Origin: a virus
Virus record (IMG/VR): IMGVR_UViG_3300032053_000268
Span: 1-34,475 of that record
Reading direction: 5' to 3' (one strand)
DNA length: 34,475 nt
Of this stretch, positions 3,989-33,884 are shown piece after piece (the stretch's first letter is position 1; each line of letters begins with the position of its first letter). A model generated the notes under the pieces. That model was not told the origin of the DNA and ran no database searches. It saw nothing but the letters and a program-made list of their open reading frames with translations. The position numbers and the translations under genes were made by a program.

Positions 3989-6083
3989 AGCAGCTATGAT
4001 TGGCAACTTTGTGAAAGAAGTTATTCGGAAAGGTGCCATTGATGATGTCTTTCTTAGAAATAGGCCGGCTCCTTGGGATGATGAAAACCTTGATCGGCTC
4101 TATGAAAAGTCTGATCTGGTTTACATCTGTATTTCCACAACTGCAAGAGCCATTTCTCAAATTCCATTAATTTTCCTACAAAAAAATAAAAAGAATAAAT
4201 GGGAAAAGGTTCCCGAAGAGGATCCTCGCTATTCGCTTCTTCACCGTCCAAACTATATGATGGATATGGCTTCATTTGTAGAAGCTACAGTCAGTTGGCT
4301 TCTGCTTGATGGAAACATATACTACATTCCATGGCCTCTGCAACATCTAAATCCTACTGGACTTCCAGATTCGATGTGGCCTGTTGCCCACAGATATATG
4401 AAGGCTGTAAAAGGTTCCTCTGGAAACCTAATAGGATGGAACTACAACCCAGATGGGAAGACAAATATTGCAATCCCATTATCAAGTACCTGTCACATTT
4501 TCTTCTGGAATCCATATGACCCAATCGTGGGTTTTGCTCCATCAAGTGCTGGAAAAATTGCAATCACAACAGATTATAAGGCAGCTAAGTTCAATCAACT
4601 TTTCTTTAAACAAGGAACTTCAATTGGTGGCGTTGTTTCTACAGATGCAGATTTGACTTCAGAACAAGTCTTTCAGATTCAAGGTGAAATAGATAAAAAG
4701 TATGCTGGCATTGAAAAGAGCCATAAGCTTCTTGTTCTTTATGGCGGCTTGAAATATACAGCTACATCACCGACTCACAAAGACATGATGTGGAATAAAC
4801 TTCGTGACATGGACAAGGAAAGAATCCTCCAAATCTATGGCATGAAAAAGAGCATCATCAGCGTGACCGACGATGTGAACTATGCTACATCAAGAGAGCA
4901 AAGAAAATCTTGGTGGCAAGATACAAACTTGCCAATCATGAAAATGATCTGCTCTGCTCTGAATTTTACCTACTTCCAAAATGAGCAAATAAAGATAGCA
5001 TTTGACATTTCAAAGGTGGAAGCTTTACAAGAAGCTTTTTCTGAAAAGGTAGATACTGCAGAAAAACTTGTGAAGATGGGATTCACTCCAAATGAAGTCA
5101 ACGAAAAACTTGAACTTGGCTTCATGGATGCTACTTGGCGCAACTACATCTTTGTTCCTGGAAACTACATTGCAATTGGTCCTGATACAGAACTTCCTCA
5201 AGCTCCAGATCCTGATGCCACTGAAGAAACACCTACAGAAACACCTCCTGAAAATAATGATTCAGAAGATACTGAAGAAGATTTGATTGAAGGTGAAGAT
5301 CTTCTTTCTGCAGAAAAAGCAGAGCCATTTGTACTTACACAGAGTACTTCCGAACTTGAAGGTCTATCTGAAAAACCTTTTAATAAATTGAAGCTTGAAG
5401 CGAAAGCTATTTATGAAGCTGTTGGAAGAGTAGGAATAGAAACCATTTCAGGAGAAATAGGCGTAGCATTTGATCCAGAATGGATGGCACGACCTGAAGC
5501 TGTGGCCTTTATAGAAAGGAAGCTGATTCAGCTTACTGGAATGGATGGAATCAGGAGACCAGTTACGAGCAGGTTAAATAAGGAAATACAAGTTGGCCTT
5601 GAAAAAGGTGAGAACATTTCAGAAATTGCGGCAAGAATTAAAAAGGTTTTCCAATTTACTGGAAACCGTGCAAAGATGATTGCTCGCACAGAATCGTACG
5701 GGGCACTTAACTTTTCAAGGAACAGTGCATTGAAGGATAGTCCGTTTGATGAAAAAAGATGGGTGACTTCACTTGATGAAAAAGTAAGAGGCAGTCATCA
5801 GGCGATGGCTGGCATGGTTATAAAGACAACGGAATTCTGGGACGTCAATGGATCTATTCTGCAATACCCAGGTGATCCTTCTGGTGCTGCAAAAGAAGTT
5901 ATCAATTGCCGCTGCATCGAAATTCCTTTAATTGGAAAGAAAGTTATTGGTGAAGGTTCCTGGAAAGAAGTTATCAGAAAGGTCAATCCGCTCGAAAAGA
6001 AATTTGAAAGCAAGATCCGAAGAGCTTTCTTTGAATTTAGAGTTGCAGTGCTCTATTGGTTATATGATCAACAAAAAAGATAA
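3981..6083 (+). CDS. Portal protein fused to MuF-type head morphogenesis domain
   Basis: 700 residues. Residues about 25-420 follow the HK97-type phage portal pattern: a CISTTARAISQIPL-like early helix, LLLDGNIYYIPW, the APSSAGKIAI region and a later stem section. An acidic, proline/threonine-rich linker follows (about 415-450). Residues about 480-650 match the Mu gpF-like minor head protein domain, with IARTE near 567, RWVTSLDEKVRGSHQAMAG near 593-612 and an INCRC cysteine pair near 640. The portal forms the dodecameric DNA gateway and MuF proteins are minor head components. Here both are one polypeptide. The gene precedes protease and capsid genes in normal head-module order. The large terminase must lie outside the window. 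Confidence 0.93.
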   Translation: MNRAAMIGNFVKEVIRKGAIDDVFLRNRPAPWDDENLDRLYEKSDLVYICISTTARAISQIPLIFLQKNKKNKWEKVPEEDPRYSLLHRPNYMMDMASFVEATVSWLLLDGNIYYIPWPLQHLNPTGLPDSMWPVAHRYMKAVKGSSGNLIGWNYNPDGKTNIAIPLSSTCHIFFWNPYDPIVGFAPSSAGKIAITTDYKAAKFNQLFFKQGTSIGGVVSTDADLTSEQVFQIQGEIDKKYAGIEKSHKLLVLYGGLKYTATSPTHKDMMWNKLRDMDKERILQIYGMKKSIISVTDDVNYATSREQRKSWWQDTNLPIMKMICSALNFTYFQNEQIKIAFDISKVEALQEAFSEKVDTAEKLVKMGFTPNEVNEKLELGFMDATWRNYIFVPGNYIAIGPDTELPQAPDPDATEETPTETPPENNDSEDTEEDLIEGEDLLSAEKAEPFVLTQSTSELEGLSEKPFNKLKLEAKAIYEAVGRVGIETISGEIGVAFDPEWMARPEAVAFIERKLIQLTGMDGIRRPVTSRLNKEIQVGLEKGENISEIAARIKKVFQFTGNRAKMIARTESYGALNFSRNSALKDSPFDEKRWVTSLDEKVRGSHQAMAGMVIKTTEFWDVNGSILQYPGDPSGAAKEVINCRCIEIPLIGKKVIGEGSWKEVIRKVNPLEKKFESKIRRAFFEFRVAVLYWLYDQQKR

Positions 6084-6097
6084 GGAAGGAGAAAAAG

Positions 6098-7522
6098 ATG
6101 GCCTACATTCTGAAAAATTCTGATGGAAGTGAAATCAAGCACAATGGGAAATCGGTACTTGGCTGCGACTACAGCGGGGTAGTTAAAGCTGTCAACCTTG
6201 AAAAAAGACTTTTGACAATTGTGGGAACAGATGAAACTGTAGATCGTTATGGCGATATCGTTCGCGTCAAGGGCTGGTCACTGGAAAACTATATCAAAAA
6301 TCCTGTTTTTCTTTGGGCGCATGACTACCGACATGTTCCTATCGGGGCGGCTGTGAAGGTAGTCCGTAAGTCAAATCCAAAGAGGATGATTTTCACCAAT
6401 AGGTTTCCAACCGAAGGTGTCTGGCCCTTTGCAGATATGATCCTTCAGCTTTTCAACGAGAAGATCCTGAACGCTTCTTCCGTTGGCTTCATTCCTTTTT
6501 CTTGGGAAGATCTCGTTACTGAGATGGAAATTCCCAAAGGAAAGGAAAAAGAAAAGAAGGAAATTCATGGGCGAGAATTTACTTTCCAAGAACTACTCGA
6601 ACTTAGTGCAGTTCCAGTTCCTGCAAATCCTTCGGCAGTTCAGGAAATGTTTGATCAAGTGAAATCCTTCAGCGCAGCCAAGTTTGGAATTGTAGGTGAA
6701 AAGCTTTTCAATAATTTCACTGGCAAAGAAATTATAGAAGAAGGAATGGAGAACGTCAAGGACGAACTGAATGACGTTATGCAGAAAGGTTTGAAGTATG
6801 AAGAAGAAACCTCTGCAATGATCCAGGTGCCTTTCAATTTTAAGAGCGAAGCTGATTGTAGCGGCATGTGCGACATCGACGCTTCTGAAGTTATGGAAGA
6901 AAAGCCCTATGCAAACGAACATGCTTGTAGGCTTGAGGACCCTGCAAAGTTTGAGAAGTTTGCGCGCAAAAATTGCGATCAGAAGCATGAAGGAAAATGC
7001 ATCGACGTTATTTTCGGAATCAAGGGTGGCAAGACTTCTATCCAGGCCCTTCGGTACCCGAAGGATAGCTGGACCGCCGCTGCGGCAAGGAATCACTGTG
7101 CCGGGCGAGGCGGAAAGTTTGAAGCCGCTGCCCAGAGCGATGCCTTCACTTCTGAACTGCTGATTTTTGTAGAAAATCTTGGGAAGCAAGTTTCGGATCT
7201 TGGAAAATTTTTGAAGAGCAACAAATCGGAAGATTCTGAAGTCGTCCAGCCCGAGGAAGTCAAAGGAGATCCGTCGGCTGAATCTGCAAATCCTTCAGTT
7301 CCTGGTGATGAAGTTCCGCCTACTGAAAAAGAAGCAGATGAGGCAACGACGCTCTACGACGAACTCCTCGAAAAGGATGCAGACGCAGAATACATTCCAC
7401 CTCGGCAAGCGGTAGTCACTGTAAACTTGAAACCTAAAAAGAAATTTTCGACCAAGAAACTGATTAAGGTAGCAAATCTCATTCAGCAGATCGGGAAAAC
7501 TCTCGACACTGCGAAGAGATAA
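6098..7522 (+). CDS. HK97-family prohead protease with long C-terminal extension
   Basis: 474 residues, starting after GGAAGGAG. The first 200 residues are a typical prohead serine protease (peptidase family U35): VDRYGDIV, WSLENYIKNPVFLWAHDY with the likely catalytic His75, NASSVGF with the likely nucleophile Ser128, and ELSAVPVPANPSA. It would cleave the capsid N-terminal delta domain during maturation. An extension follows. Residues about 270-350 contain NEHACRL, four or five cysteines, and YPKDSWTAAAARNHCAGRGGKF, a small domain I have seen downstream of such proteases but cannot name functionally. The acidic, proline-rich tail could act as scaffold. No separate scaffold gene is present before the capsid gene. 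Confidence 0.9.
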   Translation: MAYILKNSDGSEIKHNGKSVLGCDYSGVVKAVNLEKRLLTIVGTDETVDRYGDIVRVKGWSLENYIKNPVFLWAHDYRHVPIGAAVKVVRKSNPKRMIFTNRFPTEGVWPFADMILQLFNEKILNASSVGFIPFSWEDLVTEMEIPKGKEKEKKEIHGREFTFQELLELSAVPVPANPSAVQEMFDQVKSFSAAKFGIVGEKLFNNFTGKEIIEEGMENVKDELNDVMQKGLKYEEETSAMIQVPFNFKSEADCSGMCDIDASEVMEEKPYANEHACRLEDPAKFEKFARKNCDQKHEGKCIDVIFGIKGGKTSIQALRYPKDSWTAAAARNHCAGRGGKFEAAAQSDAFTSELLIFVENLGKQVSDLGKFLKSNKSEDSEVVQPEEVKGDPSAESANPSVPGDEVPPTEKEADEATTLYDELLEKDADAEYIPPRQAVVTVNLKPKKKFSTKKLIKVANLIQQIGKTLDTAKR

Positions 7523-7550
7523 AATCTAAATTCTAAAGGAGATTTCAAAA

Positions 7551-8939
7551 ATGAAATTCTACATTCTCGTTGATGGCAAACTGGTTGAAGCTACGCCCGA
7601 GCAGGTGAAAGATCTTTCCGTCGTTCTGTACGCGGAAGATAGCACCATCATCCGTGAGGCCAAGTGTCTCGAGGAAGATCCGGGAAAAGAAGATGATGCC
7701 CTTGATACCTTGACCACTTCGGTTGCTACCTTGGCCAAGTCGGTTGGTGATTTCACCAGCGCGATGGGCAAGAAAGTCACTGAGCTGGAGTCCAAGGTTT
7801 CCAAGGGTCAGTCCTTCCCGCTCTTCGTTCCTGAAGGCACCACGCTGAGCCAGGAAAGCAATGGCCGCCGGGAAATCCTCGACTATCTCGGCAAGAAAAT
7901 GGTTCTGGCTCGCCAGGGCGAAAACCTGCGCCGCGATCACAAGTGGTGGGCGCCGAAGGAGAATGTCCTGGACGAGATGAAGTGCTACTTCGGCCTGGTG
8001 AACCTCATTGGGCGGCGGTACCCGGATCCTCGCGCCTACGACCTGTTCCAGAAGGTCTATGGCGGCGAACTCAAGACCGTGATCGGTGACAGTGGGAACG
8101 TGTTTCCGGTTCCTGACATTGTCGATGCCGAGATCCTGGTCTTTGCCCGGGAAGTTTCCGTGCTTCTTCAGTATGCCCGCATGTGGGACATGACTTCAGA
8201 GAAGCAGTCCTTCCCGGCAGAAGATTCCGCCGTTGCCGTCAGTTGGGGCAATACCACGGCTGAATCCGAGCCTGGCCTGATCGAAGTCGAACTGACCGCA
8301 TCCGAACTTTCCGCGTACTCCGCGGTCAGAAATTCGACCCTGGCCGATTCCAGGTCCGACATCGTCAGCTGGCTGACCAGTGCATTGGCCGAAGCTGCTG
8401 GCCTGGAACTGGACAACAAGGGGTTCAATGGTCTCGGCACCGACAACCCCTTCATCTGCTCCGGCATTCTGTCCGCCGCCTGCGGCTATTCCGTCGTGAT
8501 GGGTTCGGGCAGCACGGCCTTCTCGCAGATTACTTCCACCGTCCTGTCTACCATGATTGCCAAACTGGATGGCATGAAAAAGCAAGGTGCCCGTTGGTGG
8601 CTCAATGGCGCCGTTCTGCATTTCGTCCGTGACCTGAAGGACAACAACGGCCGCCCGATCTTCATGGAAACGATCGGCAGTTCCGTGCCGGGTACGATCT
8701 TCGGCTATCCTTACACCGAAGTGATCAAGGCCCCGGGCAGCAGCGGCGCCAATACGCCGTTCATCGCCTTCGGCAATCTGCGGTACTTCGCCGTGGGCCG
8801 CAGGCTCCAGACTGCCGCTCTGGACGTCAACCCGTATCTGCTCTGGACCACCAACCGGACGGCCTACAAGCTGTACCACCGGTGGGCGCTCCGGATGGGG
8901 TTGCCGAAGGGCTTCGTGCGGTTGCTGACTGCAACCTAA
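7551..8939 (+). CDS. Major capsid protein, HK97 fold
   Basis: 462 residues, with AAAGGAGATTT upstream. The N-terminal 90 or so residues are charged and helical (delta/scaffold-like), followed by a HK97-type capsid body: SGNVFPVPDIVDAEIL, the LTASELSAYSAVRNSTLADS stretch, ELDNKGFNGLG, GARWWLNGAVLHFVRDLKD, GYPYTEV and LRYFAVGRR. The position after portal and protease confirms the call. The gene is distinctly G+C-rich compared with its neighbours (34 of 60 bases in 8281-8340, against 13 of 60 in 10981-11040), which fits codon selection for very high expression. Hairpins and a terminator follow immediately. Confidence 0.93.
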   Translation: MKFYILVDGKLVEATPEQVKDLSVVLYAEDSTIIREAKCLEEDPGKEDDALDTLTTSVATLAKSVGDFTSAMGKKVTELESKVSKGQSFPLFVPEGTTLSQESNGRREILDYLGKKMVLARQGENLRRDHKWWAPKENVLDEMKCYFGLVNLIGRRYPDPRAYDLFQKVYGGELKTVIGDSGNVFPVPDIVDAEILVFAREVSVLLQYARMWDMTSEKQSFPAEDSAVAVSWGNTTAESEPGLIEVELTASELSAYSAVRNSTLADSRSDIVSWLTSALAEAAGLELDNKGFNGLGTDNPFICSGILSAACGYSVVMGSGSTAFSQITSTVLSTMIAKLDGMKKQGARWWLNGAVLHFVRDLKDNNGRPIFMETIGSSVPGTIFGYPYTEVIKAPGSSGANTPFIAFGNLRYFAVGRRLQTAALDVNPYLLWTTNRTAYKLYHRWALRMGLPKGFVRLLTAT

Positions 8940-16369: not shown

Positions 16370-17750
16370 CCTTAACCCTGTGCGGATCCACATCATAGAT
16401 CATAGTATGTCAAGACTTCTTTCTCCTGAATATCTACCAGACCTGCGAGAACTTCTATCATACACTGAATCAAATTATTATTATGGTGAAATGGCTTTTA
16501 GGAAGAAATCTGAAATTGGAAGGACGGGTCTTTTTCTTACTGGTTATGTAGATCTTATCAAGAAGCATTTTCCAGTAAGGATTGTTCGCGATGATTCTTG
16601 TAAAGGTATTTCTGTAAAAAATAATATTGAAGGATTTTCTGGTGGTGATTTTAAGTTTTTTCGAGATCAAGTTGATGTCTTTGAAAAGATAAAAAATACA
16701 AGAAGAGGTTTCATAAAATATCCTACTGGAAGTGGAAAGACTGTGATTGCTGCTGGTGTTATCTATATGTATGATCCTGAGATGTGTTTATTTATTGTGC
16801 ATACAAAGGATCTACTTGTTCAGACGATAGAAAATTTTCAAAATTATTTTGGGAAGAAAATGATTGGCTGTATAGGTTCTGGAAAATATAAGCCAGGAAG
16901 AATAACTGTCGGAACAATTCAAAGTCTTGGAAATAGGTTTTCAGAAAAGGAATCTCAGAAGGTTGATATGATTATTGTGGATGAAGGCCACCACCTTCAT
17001 TCTTCTTCATATCGAAAATTTATAAATACATTGACAAACTGTTCTGTAAGATATGCACTGACTGGTACGATGCATAAGAAAAACAAAGCGGCTATTCTTA
17101 TTCGTGAAGGTTTGATAGGTCCAGCCATAGCTGAAATAACCAGTTCGACCTTGATAGACCGTGGCAGGCTTGCAAAACCTAAGATTTATTTTTGCTCTTA
17201 CAAAGATCTTCCTGTAGATGAATTTGACCCAGAAGAATATAAGTCAGATGACTATCGAGCCATTTACCAGCTTGGAATTGTACAGAATCGCGAAAGGAAT
17301 AAAACCATTGCCAAGGTTTCAAAAGAATGTGTAATGAGGGGTGAAAAAATACTTATAATTGTGAAGCATGTTAGGCATGGAAAATACCTGGAAGCCCTTG
17401 GTGCTGGTGTCCTCGTACAGGGTAGTACGAAGATAGAAGAAAGGACATTTGTAAAAAAACTTTTCGGATCTACCTCTACAGGATTTTCTGTAATAGCTAC
17501 GCCAGTATGGGATGAGGGTACAGATATACCTTCTGTAAATGCTATCATTCCTGCCGGTGCTGGAAAGAGCGAAATCAAGGTGATTCAGTGGATAGGACGT
17601 GGGCTACGTGTCACTGAGAGCAAGAAAACCGTGGATGTATATGATTTTATAGATTCTGTACATCCAATCCTCCTCAGGCATTCTAAAAGTCGTGCCGCTC
17701 TTTTCAAAAGGGAAGGTTGGCCCATTCAGGTTGTAGATATGGTTGAATGA
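16362..17750 (+). CDS. SF2 DEAD/DEAH-type helicase, UvsW/RadD-like
   Basis: 462 residues from the ATG at 16362, overlapping the previous gene by 8 bases. Motifs in order: FFRDQVDVFEKI (Q-like, about 99-110), PTGSGKT (121-127), VGTIQSL (183-189), DEGH (207-210), ALTGTM (232-237), ATPVWDEGTDIP (379-390) and QWIGRGLR (409-416). This is the full set for a superfamily 2 DNA helicase of the UvsW/RadD/type-III-Res type. T4 UvsW remodels recombination intermediates and removes R-loops. A similar recombination or late-replication role is likely here, between replicative helicase and primase. Confidence 0.85.
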   Translation: MNNLNPVRIHIIDHSMSRLLSPEYLPDLRELLSYTESNYYYGEMAFRKKSEIGRTGLFLTGYVDLIKKHFPVRIVRDDSCKGISVKNNIEGFSGGDFKFFRDQVDVFEKIKNTRRGFIKYPTGSGKTVIAAGVIYMYDPEMCLFIVHTKDLLVQTIENFQNYFGKKMIGCIGSGKYKPGRITVGTIQSLGNRFSEKESQKVDMIIVDEGHHLHSSSYRKFINTLTNCSVRYALTGTMHKKNKAAILIREGLIGPAIAEITSSTLIDRGRLAKPKIYFCSYKDLPVDEFDPEEYKSDDYRAIYQLGIVQNRERNKTIAKVSKECVMRGEKILIIVKHVRHGKYLEALGAGVLVQGSTKIEERTFVKKLFGSTSTGFSVIATPVWDEGTDIPSVNAIIPAGAGKSEIKVIQWIGRGLRVTESKKTVDVYDFIDSVHPILLRHSKSRAALFKREGWPIQVVDMVE

Positions 17751-17751
17751 A

Positions 17752-18693
17752 ATGGATTTTTCCGAACTTTACAAATCTTATCTTGACCATACTGGCAGGC
17801 CTCATAAGGACTATGGAACACCAGACCGTCCTTATATCGCCTGCCACTGTCCGACTTGTAACTATGATGGAAAAATTTTCCGTCAGATCTGGATTTCTGC
17901 AAATAAAGGAAACTGGGGCTGCTGGCGCTGCGGTGATAGTGGGAAAGATATAGTTTCACTGATAGCTTATCTTGAGCAGGTTAGATTTAAAGAGGCAAGG
18001 AAGAAAGCGCAGACATATCAAACTATTTCTAACCTATCAAAAGATGATTCTACGATAGAGGAAATCCTTTCTGAAAAAAAACCAGAAGAGGCAAAGGTCT
18101 ACAGAAAGTCCAACTATTTTCCAAAGTTCATGCGCGATATAAAACCAGACAGCAAAGCCTGGGCCTACCTTATTCGCCGTGGCTTTGATCCTTGGAAGGT
18201 TATAGAAAAATGGGAACTGTCTTTTTGTTATGATGGAAGGTATGCTCATCGGATAATGATGCCCATCCAAGATCCTGATGGGCGCTACATTTGCGCTTGG
18301 CAGGGAAGGGATATTACAGGAAAGCAAGAACTCCCATACCTTTCCACATCTGAGCAGGAGACTGGTGTTAATATAAAATGGCTTGTTCTAAATATCCACC
18401 GTGCTGATAGTCCTTTGGTGGTGACTGAAGGTTATATGGACACGATGACGGTAGGATGTGCCCATGGCATATGTGCCTTCGGAAAAAAAATTACGCGCGA
18501 TCAGTTGAAACTTATCAGAGACAAGGCTCCTTCTAAAGTCATAGTGGGCTTTGACGGAGATGCAATTCGTGAAAATGAAGATCTATCAGCTGACCTGGAA
18601 ACCTTTACTGAGTCAGCGTTTCTACGCCTTCCATACACACAAGATATAAACAGCCTCGGTCTGTCCTTCCAAAAGATCCTTTCCAGGATCTAA
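17752..18693 (+). CDS. DnaG-like primase (CHC2 zinc domain plus TOPRIM)
   Basis: 313 residues, taking the ATG at 17752 just after the helicase stop; an upstream in-frame TTG at 17743 is less likely. The zinc domain is CHCPTC (31-36) with CWRC (57-60). The TOPRIM part has VVTEGYMD (Glu226) and VGFDGD (Asp268, Asp270). It should synthesise RNA primers for lagging-strand DNA. It lacks a fused helicase domain, consistent with the separate DnaB-like gene upstream. The C-terminus is short. A perfect 7-bp hairpin (18674-18680 with 18685-18691) lies over the last codons. Confidence 0.87.
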   Translation: MDFSELYKSYLDHTGRPHKDYGTPDRPYIACHCPTCNYDGKIFRQIWISANKGNWGCWRCGDSGKDIVSLIAYLEQVRFKEARKKAQTYQTISNLSKDDSTIEEILSEKKPEEAKVYRKSNYFPKFMRDIKPDSKAWAYLIRRGFDPWKVIEKWELSFCYDGRYAHRIMMPIQDPDGRYICAWQGRDITGKQELPYLSTSEQETGVNIKWLVLNIHRADSPLVVTEGYMDTMTVGCAHGICAFGKKITRDQLKLIRDKAPSKVIVGFDGDAIRENEDLSADLETFTESAFLRLPYTQDINSLGLSFQKILSRI

Positions 18694-19013
18694 AGTAGGC
18701 CCAGTAAGGGTTTACATCGATTTTCCTTTGTAAAATGGCTTCCAGTCACACTTTACAGATACCTACCTCGAAAAATGTCCCAGTCCAGTTTTAAGGTTTC
18801 CATTTAGTCTATAATGTATTGATTTTATTATATAAAATAGCATTCCTTTAAAGGAGACGGGTTTGTTGTTGATTTTATTGATAAATTTGATCATATTTTT
18901 TCATCCTTTTAATAGGAAAAATAAATTTTTTTTTGCTTGTAAAAACAATATGTTATAAGATTGTCAAAAATTTCCTTTTCTTTAGGTTTTAAAAAATGTA
19001 AAATAGGTTCAAC
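18694..19013 (+). other. A+T-rich leader without protein gene; possible promoter(s) for the large RNA
   Basis: No open frame with a ribosome binding site is visible. The sequence becomes very A+T-rich from about 18790 to 19010, then changes sharply to G+C-richer at the structured RNA. Promoter-like elements are a perfect TATAAT at 18810-18815 with a weak -35, TTGCTT 15 bases before TATAAG (18933-18959), and TGTAAAAT at 18997-19004, which would start transcription near 19011. None is convincing alone. The same stretch could be an unwinding region for replication, given the adjacent primase and helicase genes; no iterons were recognised. Confidence 0.35.
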
Positions 19014-19580
19014 AACTTAAAGAGAGGAGGTGATAAGGAAATCATAGCGTTTCTTGGCCGGTCGCAAGATTAAAAAGACCGGGGCGGACGAAGGCCACCT
19101 AAAAAATCCTTTAAGTTCTTTGAAGTCTGGAGGGGCTCACAGCACAGGGAGCCTTTTCTAAGTAAGCTAAAAAAGAAGGTTTTCCGACCTTCAAAACCGG
19201 CTCCAGACAAATAAGGGTTAAATCGAAGGAAAGCTTCTGAAAGTCCGGCGCGAGCGTGCTCTAACTGGAAGAACCAGCGGATGGAAAGAAAGATCGCCTT
19301 CGAGCCCGAAACGACACTACCTAAGATCCAAGGTGGGAAGGGACGCCAGAATGGGCTGGCAAACTATATATACCATGCCGAAGTAAAGTAGGCTTGCAAG
19401 ATCCTTTCAGCTATACACAGCCTCTCTCAAGGAGGCACCGCATAGTACCACGGAACCAGCCTGAAAAAATTAGTAGGGCCGCAGGATCTTAGGTAGGAAA
19501 AAATCGGTTGAAACCGATTACAGCTTTCGCAAGGCCCCCCAAGGGTTTTGCGAAGGCTGTTAAGGCAAATCAACCTCCCG
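19014..19580 (+). ncRNA. Large structured non-coding RNA (about 570 nt), ROOL/GOLLD-like candidate
   Basis: No coding frame spans the region. Hand-folding gives many long helices: 19014-19022 with 19109-19117 (9 bp); 19058-19063 with 19077-19082; 19125-19132 with 19201-19208 (8 bp) enclosing 19134-19138/19149-19153 and 19175-19180/19187-19192; 19223-19229 with 19297-19303 (7 bp); 19317-19329 with 19484-19496 (13 bp, perfect) enclosing 19345-19349/19356-19360 and 19420-19424/19432-19436; 19502-19508 with 19513-19519; and 19520-19532 with 19548-19560 (13 bp, one G-U). Bases 19026-19031 can pair with 19573-19578, joining the ends. Size, ornate multi-branch fold and phage location fit the ROOL class (and less so the longer GOLLD), but membership was not tested. 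The 3' boundary lies before the Shine-Dalgarno at 19604. Confidence 0.82.
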
Positions 19581-19597
19581 CAATAAACCACACACAC

Positions 19598-19621
19598 CTA
19601 ACGAAAGGAAAAAGAAAATGA
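19598..19621 (+). promoter_or_regulatory. 24-nt translation leader, copy 1
   Basis: Bases 19598-19621, covering CTAACG, the AAAGGAAAAAG ribosome binding site and the ATG, are identical to 21257-21280 upstream of another small gene. An identical leader on two otherwise different genes points to a duplicated or selected initiation cassette. Confidence 0.6.
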
Positions 19622-19869
19622 AAAAGACCAATCCGAGTGAGCGCGATCAGATGGTAGTCCAGATCAAGAATCAGGTTGCCACCCTTCAGAATGCCGGTCT
19701 GGATATAGAATGGAATATGGGCACCGATCCTAATTGGTTATTCGAAAATGTGCTCGTAAACGGTGAAGAAGTTTTCACCAAGTGGAACGTGAATCTGAAA
19801 GAACTTAATCACTACCTGGCCGGCATGATAATGGCTTTCCGGTGTGTCAACGTGATCCGCTCCTGCTAA
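19618..19869 (+). CDS. Small protein of unknown function
   Basis: 83 residues with a good GAAAGGAAAAAG ribosome binding site, the first gene after the large RNA. Mixed alpha/beta composition: a charged N-terminal helix, then LDIEWNMGTDPNWLFENVLVNGEEVF, which looks like a small beta-rich core, and a C-terminal helix ending in Cys. No signal peptide, membrane segment or known motif. Its stop is followed within 10 bases by a type A structured element. Early accessory gene of unknown role. Confidence 0.65.
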   Translation: MKKTNPSERDQMVVQIKNQVATLQNAGLDIEWNMGTDPNWLFENVLVNGEEVFTKWNVNLKELNHYLAGMIMAFRCVNVIRSC

Positions 19870-19870
19870 C

Positions 19871-19938
19871 TAAGCCGAAACCGGCCACCAAGGCCGGTCT
19901 TCAGAAGGTGGTTCTTCTGGACTGAAGATGGCAGCCAA
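19871..19938 (+). repeat. Structured RNA element type A, copy 1
   Basis: After CGAAA come hairpin P1 (19880-19886 with 19892-19898) and hairpin P2. P2 has outer CTTC/GAAG (19899-19902 with 19924-19927), inner 19903-19907/19914-19918, loop GTGGTT, 3'-side bulge GGACT, and a conserved GCAGCCAA tail. Copies at 20299 and 21562 keep loop, bulge and tail while changing stem bases in compensating pairs. This is good evidence for a selected RNA structure. Confidence 0.78.
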
Positions 19939-19980
19939 TCTACACAAACATAAACCTTAACAAAAAAAGGAAGGTGAACA

Positions 19981-20298
19981 ATGGCAAAAGGAACTTTGGG
20001 CATGATGGTAGAGGAATTCGGTGATCATCGTCGGCCGGTCTTTGAATCCTTCAAAGAACTTCGGGAAATGGTAAAAGTTTTGGAAGCTATGGTGAATCCT
20101 ACTTATCAGCGGCTCAACGACTGGGAGCAAGAAGGTGAAAGCAAGGAAATTCACGAATCCGCATATCAAGCCTTTAGTTCAGATATTGAAAGAGCGTTTA
20201 TAGAAGTTCAAGATGCTTTGAAAGCTTTTCAGGCTGCCGAACTTACGGCCATGAAGCGGAAAAGGATAGACAAGAAGTTCATCAAAAATTCTAACTAA
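19981..20298 (+). CDS. Helical protein of unknown function
   Basis: 105 residues with AAAGGAAGGTG upstream. Almost entirely helical and charged (FESFKELREMVKVLEAMV and IERAFIEVQDALKAFQAAEL), possibly a helical bundle, with a basic C-terminus. No cysteine motif or membrane segment. It sits between type A elements 1 and 2, so its mRNA would be flanked by structured RNA on both sides. No family recognised. Confidence 0.65.
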   Translation: MAKGTLGMMVEEFGDHRRPVFESFKELREMVKVLEAMVNPTYQRLNDWEQEGESKEIHESAYQAFSSDIERAFIEVQDALKAFQAAELTAMKRKRIDKKFIKNSN

Positions 20299-20362
20299 AC
20301 CGAAAGCAGCCGCAAGGCTGCTCTTCACAGGGTGGTGCCTGTGGACTGAAGATGGCAGCCAA
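20299..20362 (+). repeat. Structured RNA element type A, copy 2
   Basis: P1 is 20306-20311 with 20316-20321 around a GCAA (GNRA) loop. P2 has outer 20323-20326/20348-20351, inner 20327-20331/20338-20342, loop GTGGTG, bulge GGACT, then GCAGCCAA. Both P1 and the inner P2 stem differ from copy 1 but remain fully paired. Confidence 0.78.
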
Positions 20363-20381
20363 CTTAAAAGGAGGAAGGATT

Positions 20382-20972: not shown

Positions 20973-21034
20973 TTTGACCCCGAGCAGGGTGGGCAAAGGT
21001 TTAAAGCTTTTGTCCATCCTTCAGGTCTGTCAAG
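20973..21034 (+). repeat. Structured RNA element type B, copy 1 (62 nt)
   Basis: Identical over 62 bases to 24087-24148. Nested pairing is visible: terminal TTGAC with GTCAA, a 7-bp middle helix (AGGGTGG with CCATCCT), and an apical CAAAGGTT/AGCTTTTG hairpin. It starts two bases after a stop codon and is followed by the CCTTAAC leader motif of the next gene. Confidence 0.75.
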
Positions 21035-21558: not shown

Positions 21559-21561
21559 ATG

Positions 21562-21622
21562 CGAAACCGGCCACCAAGGCCGGTCATCGTAGCGTGGTGG
21601 CTACGGTCTGAAGAGCAGCCAA
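21562..21622 (+). repeat. Structured RNA element type A, copy 3
   Basis: P1 is 21566-21572 with 21578-21584, the same sequence as copy 1. P2 inner stem is 21589-21593 with 21600-21604, loop GTGGTG, bulge GGTCT, GAAG and GCAGCCAA. The inner stem sequence differs from both other copies yet pairs perfectly. The outer CATC/GAAG stem has one mismatch. Confidence 0.76.
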
Positions 21623-21653
21623 AACCAATAACCTCAAACGGAAGGAAATCAAA

Positions 21654-22208
21654 ATGCCTAAAGTAAGAATCAGAACTGCCAGCGGTCGGATGAAGACGGT
21701 TGAAACCACGAAAGTGAAGGTGGAAGCCACTTTGGAAGAAAAAATCAAATACGAAATAGATAACATCGACTGGTTTTTTCAACATAACTTGAAGAGCATA
21801 GACAAGCGTCGTGAAGAATTTCTGACTGGTGTTCTGACCGACATCCTTTACGAACTTCGGAACTGCGAAAAGGTTATGGAAGCAGAACTTGAAAGGAAAG
21901 AAATCAAGAGGATGAAGGCAATCTACGATGAAAATTTTCAAATTGCAAGTTATGCAGGAGCCCTCAAAGCTTTACGGCAATATCAAGATATGGTTCTGGA
22001 AGATATTTTGAACTCACCTTATAAGCACAATAGCACTTGCGTCTTTTCAAATCTTTTCCAAGCCAAGGAAATAGAAGTTCGCGCCGGCGTATGGAGGAAG
22101 GGTGGTTGGAGCGGAAGCACTGTAAGGGACATCATTCGGTCTTTGGAAAAATTAGTCGAATATGAAAAAGAACTTTTTCAAAGGAATTGCGGATCTATCG
22201 CAAGCTGA
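21654..22208 (+). CDS. Protein of unknown function, helical
   Basis: 184 residues with GGAAGGAAATC upstream. A short basic beta-like N-terminus (MPKVRIRTASGRMK) leads into long charged helices (about residues 25-120), including EKVMEAELERKEIKRMK, and a C-terminal section with WRKGGWSGSTVRDIIRSLEKL. No catalytic motif or metal site. The largest protein in the small-gene block. The stop codon lies just before the 5' arm of type C element copy 1. Confidence 0.65.
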   Translation: MPKVRIRTASGRMKTVETTKVKVEATLEEKIKYEIDNIDWFFQHNLKSIDKRREEFLTGVLTDILYELRNCEKVMEAELERKEIKRMKAIYDENFQIASYAGALKALRQYQDMVLEDILNSPYKHNSTCVFSNLFQAKEIEVRAGVWRKGGWSGSTVRDIIRSLEKLVEYEKELFQRNCGSIAS

Positions 22209-22266
22209 CCAAGCAGCTATATAAAGCCATTAGGCTTGGTGCGGTACCGGTCTTCGGACCGGTACG
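22208..22266 (+). repeat. Structured RNA element type C, copy 1
   Basis: Hairpin 1: ACCAAGC (22208-22214) with GCTTGGT (22234-22240), around a 19-nt loop. Hairpin 2: 22244-22252 with 22257-22265, 9 bp capped by a UUCG tetraloop. Copy 2 at 23061 keeps hairpin 2 identical and changes hairpin 1 by compensating substitutions. There is no T-run. Confidence 0.74.
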
Positions 22267-22302
22267 TTGGAAGGTCTAACCCCTAACAGGAGGAAAAAAA
22301 CT

Positions 22303-22707: not shown

Positions 22708-23079
22708 ATGGGCGAAGCAGATGATCTTATCGAAATGTCGCAGCAAGCAAAACGCTACTACAAAAAAATGGAGGAAAGAAAAATGACTATGCTGACCGCA
22801 GAAGAAGCAACTTCAAACATCATTCTTAGGCCAGAAGATAAGCGAAGATCAACCGATCTGATAAGGGAAATTAGGAAATACGCAGGCTCTATCATGACTT
22901 TGCTCCAAGAGGATTTCGAACCTGGCGAAGAGGTGAAGCAAATCGGAAACATGATTCTGGATATAGAACTCGATGCGAAGAATTTGTCTGCTTCAATTAA
23001 AGAACTTTCGGAAATAGAAACGGACGAAGAAAAGGAAGTTGAGCAGATTAGAAATCATCGACTTGGCGATGTAAAATAG
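22708..23079 (+). CDS. Acidic helical protein of unknown function
   Basis: 123 residues with GGAAGGAGACAGT upstream. An internal ATG at 22783 also has a GGAGGAAAG upstream and could give a shorter product starting MTMLTAEEA. The protein is helical and acidic (ELSEIETDEEKEVEQIRNH). Its last codons carry the 5' arm of type C element copy 2, so coding sequence and RNA structure overlap. No family recognised. Confidence 0.62.
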   Translation: MGEADDLIEMSQQAKRYYKKMEERKMTMLTAEEATSNIILRPEDKRRSTDLIREIRKYAGSIMTLLQEDFEPGEEVKQIGNMILDIELDAKNLSASIKELSEIETDEEKEVEQIRNHRLGDVK

Positions 23080-23118
23080 CCGTTAAGCCAAGTGCGGTAC
23101 CGGTCTTCGGACCGGTAC
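23061..23118 (+). repeat. Structured RNA element type C, copy 2
   Basis: Hairpin 1: ACTTGGC (23061-23067, inside the end of the upstream gene) with GCCAAGT (23087-23093). Hairpin 2: 23097-23105 with 23110-23118 with a UUCG loop, identical to copy 1. Three stem positions of hairpin 1 differ from copy 1 with matching changes on the other arm. Confidence 0.74.
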
Positions 23119-23162
23119 GTCGGAGATTCAAACCTATAACCTCAACAGAAAGGAATAGACCT

Positions 23163-24086: not shown

Positions 24087-24148
24087 TTTGACCCCGAGCA
24101 GGGTGGGCAAAGGTTTAAAGCTTTTGTCCATCCTTCAGGTCTGTCAAG
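24087..24148 (+). repeat. Structured RNA element type B, copy 2 (62 nt)
   Basis: Identical to 20973-21034. It starts four bases after the DUF2997-like stop and lies upstream of the AAA ATPase leader. Full identity over 62 bases more than 3 kb apart points to recent duplication or strong selection. Confidence 0.75.
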
Positions 24149-25651: not shown

Positions 25652-25653
25652 CC

Positions 25654-25698
25654 ACTATCCTGCCCTTGAGGAAAAGGATCTTCAAGGGCAGAGGTAGT
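25654..25698 (+). repeat. Intergenic stem-loop after the AAA ATPase gene
   Basis: A 12-bp stem (25660-25671 with 25680-25691, one G-U) is extended by a lower 6-bp helix (25654-25659 with 25693-25698). No T-run follows, so it is not a standard terminator. It occupies the same gene-end position as the A, B and C elements but has a different sequence. Confidence 0.6.
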
Positions 25699-25741
25699 TG
25701 TTAACTGGTCAACCTAACCCCAAGAAGGAGGAAGAAAAGGA

Positions 25742-27495: not shown

Positions 27496-27540
27496 AAAAG
27501 GGCTATGCTTCCTTTCCGGGGCATAGCCCTTTTGTGTTTT
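27496..27540 (+). terminator. Intrinsic terminator (possibly bidirectional)
   Basis: A perfect 13-bp stem pairs 27496-27508 with 27521-27533 around a 12-nt loop. It is flanked by an A-run on the left and TTTT then GTGTTTT on the right, so it could stop transcription from either side. It separates the AAA/DUF3150 transcript from the next unit. Confidence 0.85.
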
Positions 27541-30657: not shown

Positions 30658-30713
30658 ATGCCCAAAATTTGACTACCAAAAACCATATAATAATATTAGA
30701 AAGGAAGAAAGCA

Positions 30714-31637
30714 ATGAACAAAATAATACCTTATATCAAGTTGGTTCAGAGGACAATGCCAGCTTCACCGCTTCTGACTGTACAAATAAATTTAACTACA
30801 AATTGCGGTGGACTTAATTGCATGACATGTAAGCGAAGCACTTGGCCTTTCGCCCAGATAGATTGTGAAAGGATTCAATATTTATTTAGATGTCTAAATA
30901 ATATGCAAGTTGAAACTGCTTACATAACTGGTGGTGATCCTCTTTTATATCCTTATCTCTTTGATCTTCTGGAAAGATTTCGTGGCGATGTTAAAATTGG
31001 AATGGTTACTACAGCAGCTTTTAAAGTCTATCCGATAGAATTTTGGGAAAGACTTTATGCAAATGTAGAGTGGTGCAGGATTACTCTTGATGCAGTAAGT
31101 GATTCTACTTATGAAAAAATAAAGGGGAAAAATTTATTAAATAATGTAATTGATAATTGTGAACATATTTCACAGCTACAACTTCCAAAAGAAAAAGTAA
31201 GAATAAATACTCTTGAAATAAAAGATTTAAATGAAGAAGAAATCCCGCTCATAATGTATCAGGCAGAGCAGTGGGGATTTGATTTCAGGCTACATCAGGT
31301 TCATACCTTTCCAGAATTTAGATCTGATACAAAAGATATTGCACCGCACCTTTGTCCTACTACACAAATACACTGCATGATAGATGCTGATGGAGAAGTC
31401 TTTCCTTGCTCTGATATAGCCAGAGAAAATGGTTTTTTTAAAGATAGAAATATGAACCATTCATATGGAAATATAAATCGTCAATCAATAAATTCTATTT
31501 GGAAATATGGTTCTGAAAAAAGGCTTGAGCTATATTCTAAAAGATGTGAAGAATGTAGGTGGTGCTCACCTCGAGCAAATGAATCAAATAGGATCTATTC
31601 TGAATTCATAGCTTCTGACAGGGGGATATTTTTATGA
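30714..31637 (+). CDS. Radical SAM protein with SPASM-like C-terminus
   Basis: 307 residues from the ATG at 30714 (AAAGGAAGAAAG upstream); the open frame to 30669 lacks a binding site. The cluster cysteines are C31, C36 and C39, a CX4CX2C spacing rather than the usual CX3CX2C. YITGGDPLLYP is the GGE-like motif (Asp in place of Glu), and a SPASM-type region with CMIDADGEVFPCSD, RCEECRWC lies at the C-terminus. It would cleave SAM to start radical chemistry, often on peptides. Its stop overlaps the next radical SAM gene. The substrate is unknown. Confidence 0.8.
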   Translation: MNKIIPYIKLVQRTMPASPLLTVQINLTTNCGGLNCMTCKRSTWPFAQIDCERIQYLFRCLNNMQVETAYITGGDPLLYPYLFDLLERFRGDVKIGMVTTAAFKVYPIEFWERLYANVEWCRITLDAVSDSTYEKIKGKNLLNNVIDNCEHISQLQLPKEKVRINTLEIKDLNEEEIPLIMYQAEQWGFDFRLHQVHTFPEFRSDTKDIAPHLCPTTQIHCMIDADGEVFPCSDIARENGFFKDRNMNHSYGNINRQSINSIWKYGSEKRLELYSKRCEECRWCSPRANESNRIYSEFIASDRGIFL

Positions 31638-32668
31638 ATACTGTTTTTGATTATCTTGGCCAGAGGATTCTTTCATTTTATCCTGAAATTAAAAACTATG
31701 TTGATAATGGGGTTTTTCCAAGACCTCGTTTTTTGATTTTATATCCTACAAATATTTGTAGCTTCAAATGTACTTTCTGTGATTATAAAGAACTAAATTC
31801 ACTCGGGAAAGTATTCCTAAAAAGATTTGAATGGGAATATATTCTAAATGAATTTAAAAATGCCGGTGGTCAGGCTGTAGAACTATGTGGTGGTGGTGAA
31901 CCTTTAAATTGCCCTGATATTTATTCACTCTTAGAATATATCAAAAGTCGTAGTTTACATCTTGGTGTTTTAACAAATGGAATTTGTCTTGTAGATAGTA
32001 GCATTGCAAATTTTCTTGGAAAAAATGCAAGCTATGTTAGGATCAGTTTCGAATCTGGTTCTCCTGAAATGTTTGAAAAGATAAAGGGGGTCAAGGGAAT
32101 AAATTATATCAACATTATAAATTCTGCAGGTGAAATGATAAAAAGAAAGCGTGATGACTGTCAGGTTTCCTACAAATATACAATAGGAAAAGAAGTTGAC
32201 ATCAATGATATAGAAATGGCCATAAGAAATGCAGAAGATTTTGGATTTGATTCTATTCAATTCAAACTGGCTGCAAATGTTCCTGAAGCTTTTACAGATG
32301 ATAGAATTAGACTTACTGAAAAGATAGAATATCTTGCAGAAAAATATCTTCATCACACTGTACTTCTTACAAACTTCCTGAAGATAAATCTTCCTCAAAG
32401 AGTTGGCTGCTTCACTTCTGTAGTACATACATTGATAGACTATTATGGTGATATTTATATTTGCTGTTATTATCGCCACCGCATGGATACACACTGCATT
32501 GGAAATATTTTTAAATCTGGCTTTCAATCTGTCTGGAATTCGTATGAGCATTGGAAGAAGCAGAAAGGAATAAACTGCAATGACTGCAATCTTTATGATT
32601 GTAGGTTTATTAAATATAATTTGATGATGGAATCTGCTCTTCAGAATGGACAACTCGATTTTATTTGA
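31634..32668 (+). CDS. Radical SAM protein with SPASM-like C-terminus (second copy)
   Basis: 344 residues, start overlapping the previous stop as ATGA. The classic CX3CX2C motif is C42, C46, C49 (ICSFKCTFCD), with CGGGEPLNCP as the GGE motif and VRISFESGSPEMFEKIKG. The C-terminus has GDIYICCYY and NCNDCNLYDC cysteines typical of an auxiliary Fe-S site. It is likely a paired partner of the upstream enzyme. Together with the following glycosyltransferase it suggests modification of a peptide or sugar; no precursor peptide was identified in the window. Confidence 0.85.
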   Translation: MNTVFDYLGQRILSFYPEIKNYVDNGVFPRPRFLILYPTNICSFKCTFCDYKELNSLGKVFLKRFEWEYILNEFKNAGGQAVELCGGGEPLNCPDIYSLLEYIKSRSLHLGVLTNGICLVDSSIANFLGKNASYVRISFESGSPEMFEKIKGVKGINYINIINSAGEMIKRKRDDCQVSYKYTIGKEVDINDIEMAIRNAEDFGFDSIQFKLAANVPEAFTDDRIRLTEKIEYLAEKYLHHTVLLTNFLKINLPQRVGCFTSVVHTLIDYYGDIYICCYYRHRMDTHCIGNIFKSGFQSVWNSYEHWKKQKGINCNDCNLYDCRFIKYNLMMESALQNGQLDFI

Positions 32669-32681
32669 AAGGAAAATTTAA

Positions 32682-33884
32682 ATGAGAAAACTTCTTTACA
32701 TTCCATTTTATAGTCAGCAGGATAAGACAAATGGAAAGATCCTTTTGAATGCTGACGCGAATATGCGCGTAATGAAAATGCTCTTTTCTATTCTAAAAGA
32801 ATTTTTTGAAATTCACGTTGTAGTTCCATCTGTAGGTTTGCTTTCAAATGAAAATGATATTTTAATTTTTGATGATGCTAAATGGCTTCAAAGTTTAAAG
32901 GTTTTTCCAAATAATATGATTCAAAGATTTCATTTTGATGCATTTGAATATTGTAAGATATTTGATGGTGATGAATATGATTTGATTATAAATAATACAC
33001 CTGAACTAACAAAGAATATTCTTTCCTGCTATAAATATGTGACTGGAAAATTTACTCACATTATTTCTATAAATCATTTTCCTATGATAAATGAATTTCA
33101 TATTTCAGGGCATGATCAAGTTATTTCTTATGAGCAGCGCCAGCACGAATCATTATTCTGCTCTTCACTTTCAGTTGTCTTTTCAAAATATATAAGAGAA
33201 ATCTATCTTGATGAAGGTCCATGTGTTGATGAACAAATATCACAATGGCCACTTTCTTTTGATAGTAAAGAAATTGCCTCTCATTTTAATGATAAGCAAT
33301 TTTTTAATTATAAGTCAAAAAATGAAGTAAGGTTTGTTTTTCCTAATAGACTTTCAACTACAAATTATTCTAACCATATTCCTTTCATAGAGGGTGTAAA
33401 GATCTTTGCGAGAATTTTAAAGACAGTAACTGGTAAATCAGATTTTTCTATTGCTTTTACAAATACAACAAAATCAATTTCAAAAGAATGGCTTATGAAT
33501 AATGTTCCAAACTGCATATGCCCTGATACATTTGACAGAAAAGATTATTTGAAACTACTTGCTTCATCTGATTTTTCTATTAGTCTTATGGATGATCTTC
33601 ATGGTGGAATCGCAGTTCGTGAAGGTATGGCTCTTGGATGCCTTCCTATTATAAGAAATATTCATTCATTTGGTTTTACTATTCCAGAGAACTATCCTTT
33701 ATTTGTGAAAAGTTTAGAACCTACACATATTGCAGCTGTACTTCATAATGCATATTTAATGAAATCTAATTGTAGATCTTTGTATGAATCTTTTTATAAA
33801 ATATTTGATGATGAAGATTTTGGAATTGTAGAAAATAAAGATAAAATTATATGTGATGTTCTAAGATTTATTGGAGGAAATTAA
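32682..33884 (+). CDS. GT-B-fold glycosyltransferase, probable
   Basis: 400 residues with AAAGGAAAATTT upstream. The N-half has alternating strands and helices (LLYIPFYSQQD, FEIHVVVPSVG) and the C-half has VRFVFPNRLSTT followed by ISLMDDLHGGIAVREGMALG, which resembles the donor-binding EX7E region of GT4-type enzymes although the motif is loose. The tail is A+T-rich, like the neighbours. It lies directly after two radical SAM genes and may add a sugar to the same target. Assignment to a CAZy family is uncertain. Confidence 0.62.
   Translation: MRKLLYIPFYSQQDKTNGKILLNADANMRVMKMLFSILKEFFEIHVVVPSVGLLSNENDILIFDDAKWLQSLKVFPNNMIQRFHFDAFEYCKIFDGDEYDLIINNTPELTKNILSCYKYVTGKFTHIISINHFPMINEFHISGHDQVISYEQRQHESLFCSSLSVVFSKYIREIYLDEGPCVDEQISQWPLSFDSKEIASHFNDKQFFNYKSKNEVRFVFPNRLSTTNYSNHIPFIEGVKIFARILKTVTGKSDFSIAFTNTTKSISKEWLMNNVPNCICPDTFDRKDYLKLLASSDFSISLMDDLHGGIAVREGMALGCLPIIRNIHSFGFTIPENYPLFVKSLEPTHIAAVLHNAYLMKSNCRSLYESFYKIFDDEDFGIVENKDKIICDVLRFIGGN

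Follow-up and report, generated by a model that had tools for sequence, protein, structure and literature searches.

Between its primase gene and a series of small genes divided by ribozymes, the 34.5-kb piece of tailed-phage genome analysed here (34,475 nt, hereafter the window) carries a long region that is real, untranslated and strongly structured. The position of this RNA and the layout of its locus recur across related phages; its sequence does not. We tentatively favour the reading that it is the long 5' leader of a ribozyme-divided phage operon, subject to boxA antitermination and made as a long stable RNA.

A structured, untranslated region follows the primase gene

Gene calls in the window include portal, protease, major capsid, DnaB-like helicase, UvsW-like helicase, primase and AAA ATPase genes. 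The primase stop codon lies at 18693 and the next gene starts at 19618, and the 924 nt between them (18694-19617) form the sole long gap without a + strand gene in the window. This gap opens AT-rich, with 28% G+C across 18694-18990 and folding at chance level over its first 300 nt (z -0.7). A likely promoter was recognised by eye; the consensus promoter scan demands 16-18 nt spacing, and this site, with its 15-nt spacer, is absent from the scan output. TATAAG..TTG sites are comparably placed in L222 (TATAAGCTATTGAT) and L220 (TATAAGTTATTGAT), two related phages described below. The untranslated transcript probably spans ~18966 to 19617, a slightly longer unit than the preliminary description of this DNA gave. 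The features of the locus are as follows.

18694-18932, no strand: AT-rich untranslated stretch, from the primase stop codon to the promoter (composition)
18933-18959, + strand: likely promoter with T-run, TTGCTT, 15-nt spacer and TATAAG (by eye)
18966-19617, + strand: untranslated structured leader RNA, from the putative transcript start to the first gene's start codon (fold and codon-signal analysis; putative ends)
19014-19117, + strand: 5' domain with closing helix 19014-19022 / 19109-19117 (9 pairs) and hairpin 19058-19063 / 19077-19082 (predicted fold)
19024-19034, + strand: Shine-Dalgarno-like AGGAGGTGAT, able to pair with ATCAACCTCC at 19569-19578 and join the RNA ends (sequence and constrained fold)
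19115-19126, + strand: weak boxA-like element GTTCTTTGAAGT with core GTTCTTTGAA, of the rRNA-operon antitermination type (pattern scan and comparison)
19125-19208, + strand: domain with closing helix GTCTGGAG / CTCCAGAC and two hairpins inside it (predicted fold)
19215-19307, + strand: three-way-junction domain, GGGU/GCCC and UCGAAGG/CCUUCGA (predicted fold)
19317-19496, + strand: domain with the 13-bp perfect helix CUACCUAAGAUCC / GGAUCUUAGGUAG closing it (predicted fold, shuffles)
19502-19519, + strand: 7-bp hairpin AAUCGGU / ACCGAUU (predicted fold)
19520-19560, + strand: 18-bp terminal hairpin, G-U counted, directly before the first ribosome-binding site (predicted fold)
19618-19869, + strand: first operon gene, 83 aa, no PHROG match (gene call, PHROG search)

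The preliminary description had placed about 570 nt without a coding frame at 19014-19580, and this part of it holds. No + strand frame of 40 codons lies inside the RNA and a six-frame check found no clear codon signal, in contrast to the adjacent small genes; on these negative results, readings of the RNA as a coding gene or a small ORF were rejected. At 48% G+C, 19005-19580 folds with -199 kcal/mol and a z-score of -5.3 against shuffles; ten 576-nt segments from elsewhere in the window scored +1.00 to -2.39, and the fold of 18965-19617 reaches z -6.1. When scanned in 300-nt segments, the excess stability is centred on 19300-19600 (z -4.8), and segments with starts between 19000 and 19200 show nothing notable (z -0.9 to -2.1).

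Every helix named in the preliminary description exists in this RNA, including the 9-bp helix at the 5' end. The long-range helix between 19317-19329 and 19484-19496 has 13 perfect pairs and a pair probability of 1.00, and the longest perfect helix in 500 dinucleotide shuffles averaged 8.5 bp and never reached 13 bp. The terminal hairpin at 19520-19560 is longer than the 13 bp first ascribed to it. The RNA has four helices of at least 8 bp, an ordinary count relative to shuffles (P 0.17). The suggested end-joining pairing, in which GGAGGU at 19026-19031 meets ACCUCC at 19573-19578 and is lengthened by GAU/AUC over one bulged A, is possible but not predicted by the unconstrained fold; when forced, it costs only 2.6 kcal/mol (-196.7 vs -199.3).

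The RNA body matches no Rfam family

Scanning 18690-19980 on both strands with all 4227 Rfam models (cmscan) returned, at E<5, just the downstream hammerhead ribozyme and chance-level matches, and nothing for the RNA itself. Group I and group II introns, RNase P, tmRNA and other Rfam RNAs were rejected on this basis, none of the 4227 models matching the RNA at gathering thresholds or at the relaxed one. The same search left the ROOL and GOLLD covariance models without a match at E<5. Additionally, the window contains no tRNA (the contig may be a fragment), unlike the frequent tRNA-island setting of ROOL, and no conserved 3' region of the GOLLD kind was found. Together with the lack of a conserved body in relatives, these results leave the suggested ROOL/GOLLD label unsupported. 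The broader proposal, a large structured noncoding RNA after the primase gene, is supported, and in two related phages an untranslated structured RNA occupies this same position. A general caution follows from this case: not every large folded phage RNA belongs under ROOL or GOLLD.

Searches for the RNA body in other sequences were equally negative, whether by BLASTN in named phages or by looking through viral contigs for an exact 26-mer taken from it. The segments 19209-19313 and 19314-19499, each turned into a single-sequence covariance model and run on 25 sources, yielded nothing convincing except the window itself, and running the 19314-19499 model unfiltered on L135 and L222 did not change this outcome. 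Smith-Waterman tests on whole leaders were considered uninformative, given the shifts in composition along these sequences. A conserved-motif reading of a 5' 12-mer shared with L222 (CTTAAAGAGAGG, then TCTTTGAA) was given no weight; a collection scan returned only L222 once more and a contig of a jumbo phage, in which CTTAAAGAGAGG precedes start codons and is ribosome-binding-site-like.

Position and layout recur in related phages

Scans with the primase and DnaB proteins singly found no relatives, and the primase alignment was too divergent for use as a search query. The AAA ATPase gene was conserved enough to retrieve relatives, with identities to the window protein of 50% in L135, 49% in L222 and 33% in L220. 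L135 and L222 carry pistol arrays and share the gene order of the window: the primase is followed by an AT-rich region, then by the long untranslated structured RNA, and then by small genes divided by ribozymes and the AAA ATPase. Their untranslated structured stretches measure about 450 nt (L135) and about 860 nt (L222) and surpass shuffles only moderately in fold stability (z -2.6 each). L220 likewise has a pistol array with a long untranslated AT-rich leader before it. In three further relatives, L134, L217 and L218, the untranslated leader measures about 350-750 nt and the gap enclosing it gives z -7.7, -2.9 and -8.3, respectively; these three carry no Rfam ribozymes and the leader is therefore not tied to ribozymes.

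By contrast with this recurrent layout, neither BLAST nor single-sequence covariance models found RNA bodies that could be aligned from one phage to another. Even L135 and L222 have unalignable bodies, although their AAA proteins are 76% and their primases 60% identical. With no alignable homologue found by these searches, the RNA is at most a candidate for a new class. In the leaders examined, a strong hairpin closes the relatives' leaders too, before the first ribosome-binding site. The first genes of the operon differ between phages.

Other elements were observed in these records. Within the L135 leader, 7034-7060 holds a type-II hammerhead-like core (GTGGTGGCTGATGAGATAGGCAGCC) with an unrecognisable 5' half and no Rfam call. 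The L220 leader contains a 46-nt stretch twice (about 5916-5961 and 6104-6149; 95.7% identical; AATAGTAAAGAGCAATGTCAATAAGTCTCCGAAAAGT), each copy apparently closed by a different complementary stem, that is, a repeated RNA element with changing stems. In L134, an untranslated 296 nt at 16720-17015 has an extreme fold (z -14, from 15 shuffles only). A further record, L142, has an untranslated 1.3-kb region (6919-8214, z -8.3) in which a TATTATCACTCG-like unit is repeated in both direct and inverted orientation, and this region looks like an iteron-type origin.

The RNA probably opens a ribozyme-divided operon

The genes 3' of the RNA are small and many have a ribozyme after them, the window containing three type-II hammerheads and two pistols. 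Taking the likely promoter and terminator together, the RNA would be a 5' leader, and the operon that it heads would measure 8.6 kb and contain the following elements.

19873-19940, + strand: type-II hammerhead ribozyme (Rfam RF02276, 58.4 bits)
20298-20364, + strand: type-II hammerhead ribozyme (Rfam RF02276, 49.4 bits)
20973-21034, + strand: 62-nt rod-like hairpin, copy 1 (not in Rfam)
21559-21624, + strand: type-II hammerhead ribozyme (Rfam RF02276, 71.7 bits)
22203-22271, + strand: pistol ribozyme (Rfam RF02679, 54 bits)
23056-23124, + strand: pistol ribozyme (Rfam RF02679, 63.8 bits)
24087-24148, + strand: 62-nt rod-like hairpin, copy 2, identical in sequence to copy 1 (not in Rfam)
27496-27533, + strand: strong intrinsic terminator, likely operon end (terminator prediction)

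Pistol ribozymes are known in association with phage genes (PMC4604425). The two copies of the 62-nt hairpin occupy gene junctions where ribozymes would be expected (z -4.5 and -5.3), making this element a candidate RNase III site or unrecognised ribozyme. A hammerhead-pattern scan turned up 119 contigs, none clearly related to the window phage, and a 24-mer common to two of the window hammerheads found no match. Two other observations concern the remainder of the window. A very stable hairpin at 25652-25720 (z -4.6), a possible further mRNA processing site, lies 3' of the AAA ATPase gene and is followed by a small ORF that likely encodes a membrane peptide. At 30669-33884, two radical-SAM proteins precede a protein without a PHROG match that is glycosyltransferase-like by eye, an unusual cargo.

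boxA-like elements lie in most of the leaders

On rRNA, boxA is the signal that brings in NusB and S10 and so keeps Rho from terminating transcription (PMC10250234, PMC4807359). The element in the window is weak: it no longer follows the consensus beyond TTGAA, and the predicted fold places part of it in base pairs. Its core GTTCTTTGAA, at 19115, is also found in L218, and comparable elements lie in L222 (GGTCTTTGAA), L134 (GTTCTTTAAA) and L217 (GTTCTTTGACAATC). Thus, four of the six other leaders have a boxA-like element and a fifth, that of L135 (GCTCCTTGAAAAT / GCTCCTTGAAAA), has one with one mismatch; a pattern scan of the L220 leader found none. The elements sit 24-190 nt after the assumed start, and the pattern [GT][GTC]TCTTT[GA]AA occurs elsewhere in the same records at 0-0.2 per kb. 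The boxA idea arose post hoc from looking at the leaders, and the starts of the relatives' leaders were partly set by eye. On a permissive 12-position score, only L222 and L218 are significant (P 0.005), and the window (P 0.69), L134 (P 0.23) and L220 (P 0.25) are not significant alone.

A predicted hairpin lies immediately upstream of boxA in L134 and L218 and within about 20 nt in L135 and L222; that of the window is farther off and weaker, and L217 has none. The rrn leader of a Syntrophobacterales metagenome-assembled genome has its boxA (GCTCTTTGAAAACT) 55 nt before the 16S gene, and AAA-bearing contigs were found in the Syntrophobacterales lineage.

An antitermination leader and its alternatives

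In the reading that we tentatively favour, transcription would start at the AT-rich promoter just past the primase gene and about 650 nt of structured RNA would precede the first gene. The boxA-like element, early in the leader, would load the host NusB/S10 antitermination complex onto RNA polymerase, which could then cross the untranslated folded leader and the ribozyme-studded operon as far as the 27.5 kb terminator without Rho stopping it, as polymerase does when it transcribes rRNA genes. At its 3' end, the leader is probably protected or delimited by the 18-bp hairpin, which would also leave the first ribosome-binding site accessible, and the leader may then persist as a stable RNA that may or may not have a task of its own. 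We infer where transcription starts, that boxA is used, that the leader is stable and that its body might act separately; what the sequences show is the non-coding character of the RNA, structure beyond chance, the gene order and leader position in two relatives, the ribozyme-divided operons and the boxA-like elements in most relatives' leaders. Against this reading we count the weak boxA of the window, the unalignable bodies, the moderate folds of L135 and L222 and the fact that a lambda-type nut site needs no 600 nt of structure.

A doubtful competitor is a discrete large phage RNA that acts in trans, a new ornate class like ROOL and GOLLD which perhaps forms a multimer or binds ribosomes or Nus factors; its place in a leader and its boxA would then serve only for abundant synthesis. 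Its size, extreme fold stability, perfect long-range 13-bp helix and possible end-joining helix would suit such an RNA, as would a boxA, a signal to be anticipated on rRNA and other long RNAs that are not translated (PMC10250234), and the precedent of ROOL and GOLLD, phage-borne RNAs of which GOLLD increases in expression in phage lysis (PMC12286853). This is countered by the lack of an Rfam match and of any homologue in relatives by BLAST or by single-sequence covariance models of two core domains, and by relatives' bodies of 350-1200 nt that are unlike that of the window, whereas ROOL and GOLLD retain conserved folds.

The other two explanations are both improbable. That the region is mainly a DNA element, a replication origin by the primase gene with an AT-rich DNA-unwinding stretch and a transcript that is primer or by-product, would fit the 28% G+C stretch immediately 3' of that gene and the equally placed AT-rich stretches in L135 and L222, and ColE1 plasmids have a structured preprimer RNA of similar size. 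The structured part, however, lies downstream of the AT-rich part and is itself 48% G+C, and in excess stability the + strand (z -4.8 at 19300) somewhat surpasses the - strand (z -3.5 at 19350). With a similarly small probability, the RNA could be a cis-acting translational or stability leader in which structure and terminal hairpin only protect the mRNA 5' end and regulate the first gene as a thermometer, riboswitch or RNase III processing site. The leaders examined all place a strong hairpin directly upstream of the first ribosome-binding site, and long hairpins also lie where other genes of the operon adjoin, which argues for such a role, but the RNA is much longer and more structured than known leaders of this type, no Rfam riboswitch family matches it and the first genes differ between phages.

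A more far-reaching reading, which we also consider doubtful, is that this phage lineage carries fast-changing large untranslated RNAs (about 350-1200 nt) at one recurrent site, with rRNA-style boxA antitermination and a function of their own in infection, the window RNA then belonging to a novel sort of large phage RNA unrelated to ROOL or GOLLD. If phages outside the lambdoids do open an operon with an rRNA-like antitermination leader of hundreds of nucleotides, host Nus factors would be a general resource for phage transcription, and such leaders would be a new source of large structured RNAs. The leader and its ribozyme-divided genes offer a testable model of a phage relying on RNA elements for transcription and mRNA processing.

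Comparison with known systems

ROOL resembles the window RNA in being phage-borne, about 570-600 nt long and rich in long helices; it differs in that the window RNA has no Rfam model match, no tRNA island and no conserved body among relatives. ROOL is also known to assemble into a homo-oligomeric nanocage. GOLLD is also large and phage-borne, but it has a universally conserved 3' region (PMC12286853), and the window RNA has nothing conserved and no Rfam match. The type-II hammerhead and pistol ribozymes of phages share an operon with the RNA, yet are separate elements downstream of the leader.

The locus resembles an rRNA operon leader (boxB-boxA-boxC) in its likely promoter, its boxA-like sequence and its long untranslated structured RNA, and four of the relatives add a hairpin shortly upstream; the Syntrophobacterales rrn boxA has nearly the same sequence as the leaders' boxA-like element. 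Unlike such an operon, the locus encodes no rRNA (no Rfam match) and protein genes follow the leader, and the boxA of the window is imperfect and lies inside a possible closing helix. In rRNA operons leader and trailer pair (PMC10250234), and the ends of the window RNA are also able to pair. The lambda nut and HK022 put sites are likewise phage leader RNAs, and the window RNA would share with them an action on RNA polymerase as it enters an operon; they are short, whereas up to 600-1200 nt are untranslated here, and the order of elements in the relatives, hairpin then boxA, is that of rrn leaders, unlike that of lambda nut or HK022 put.
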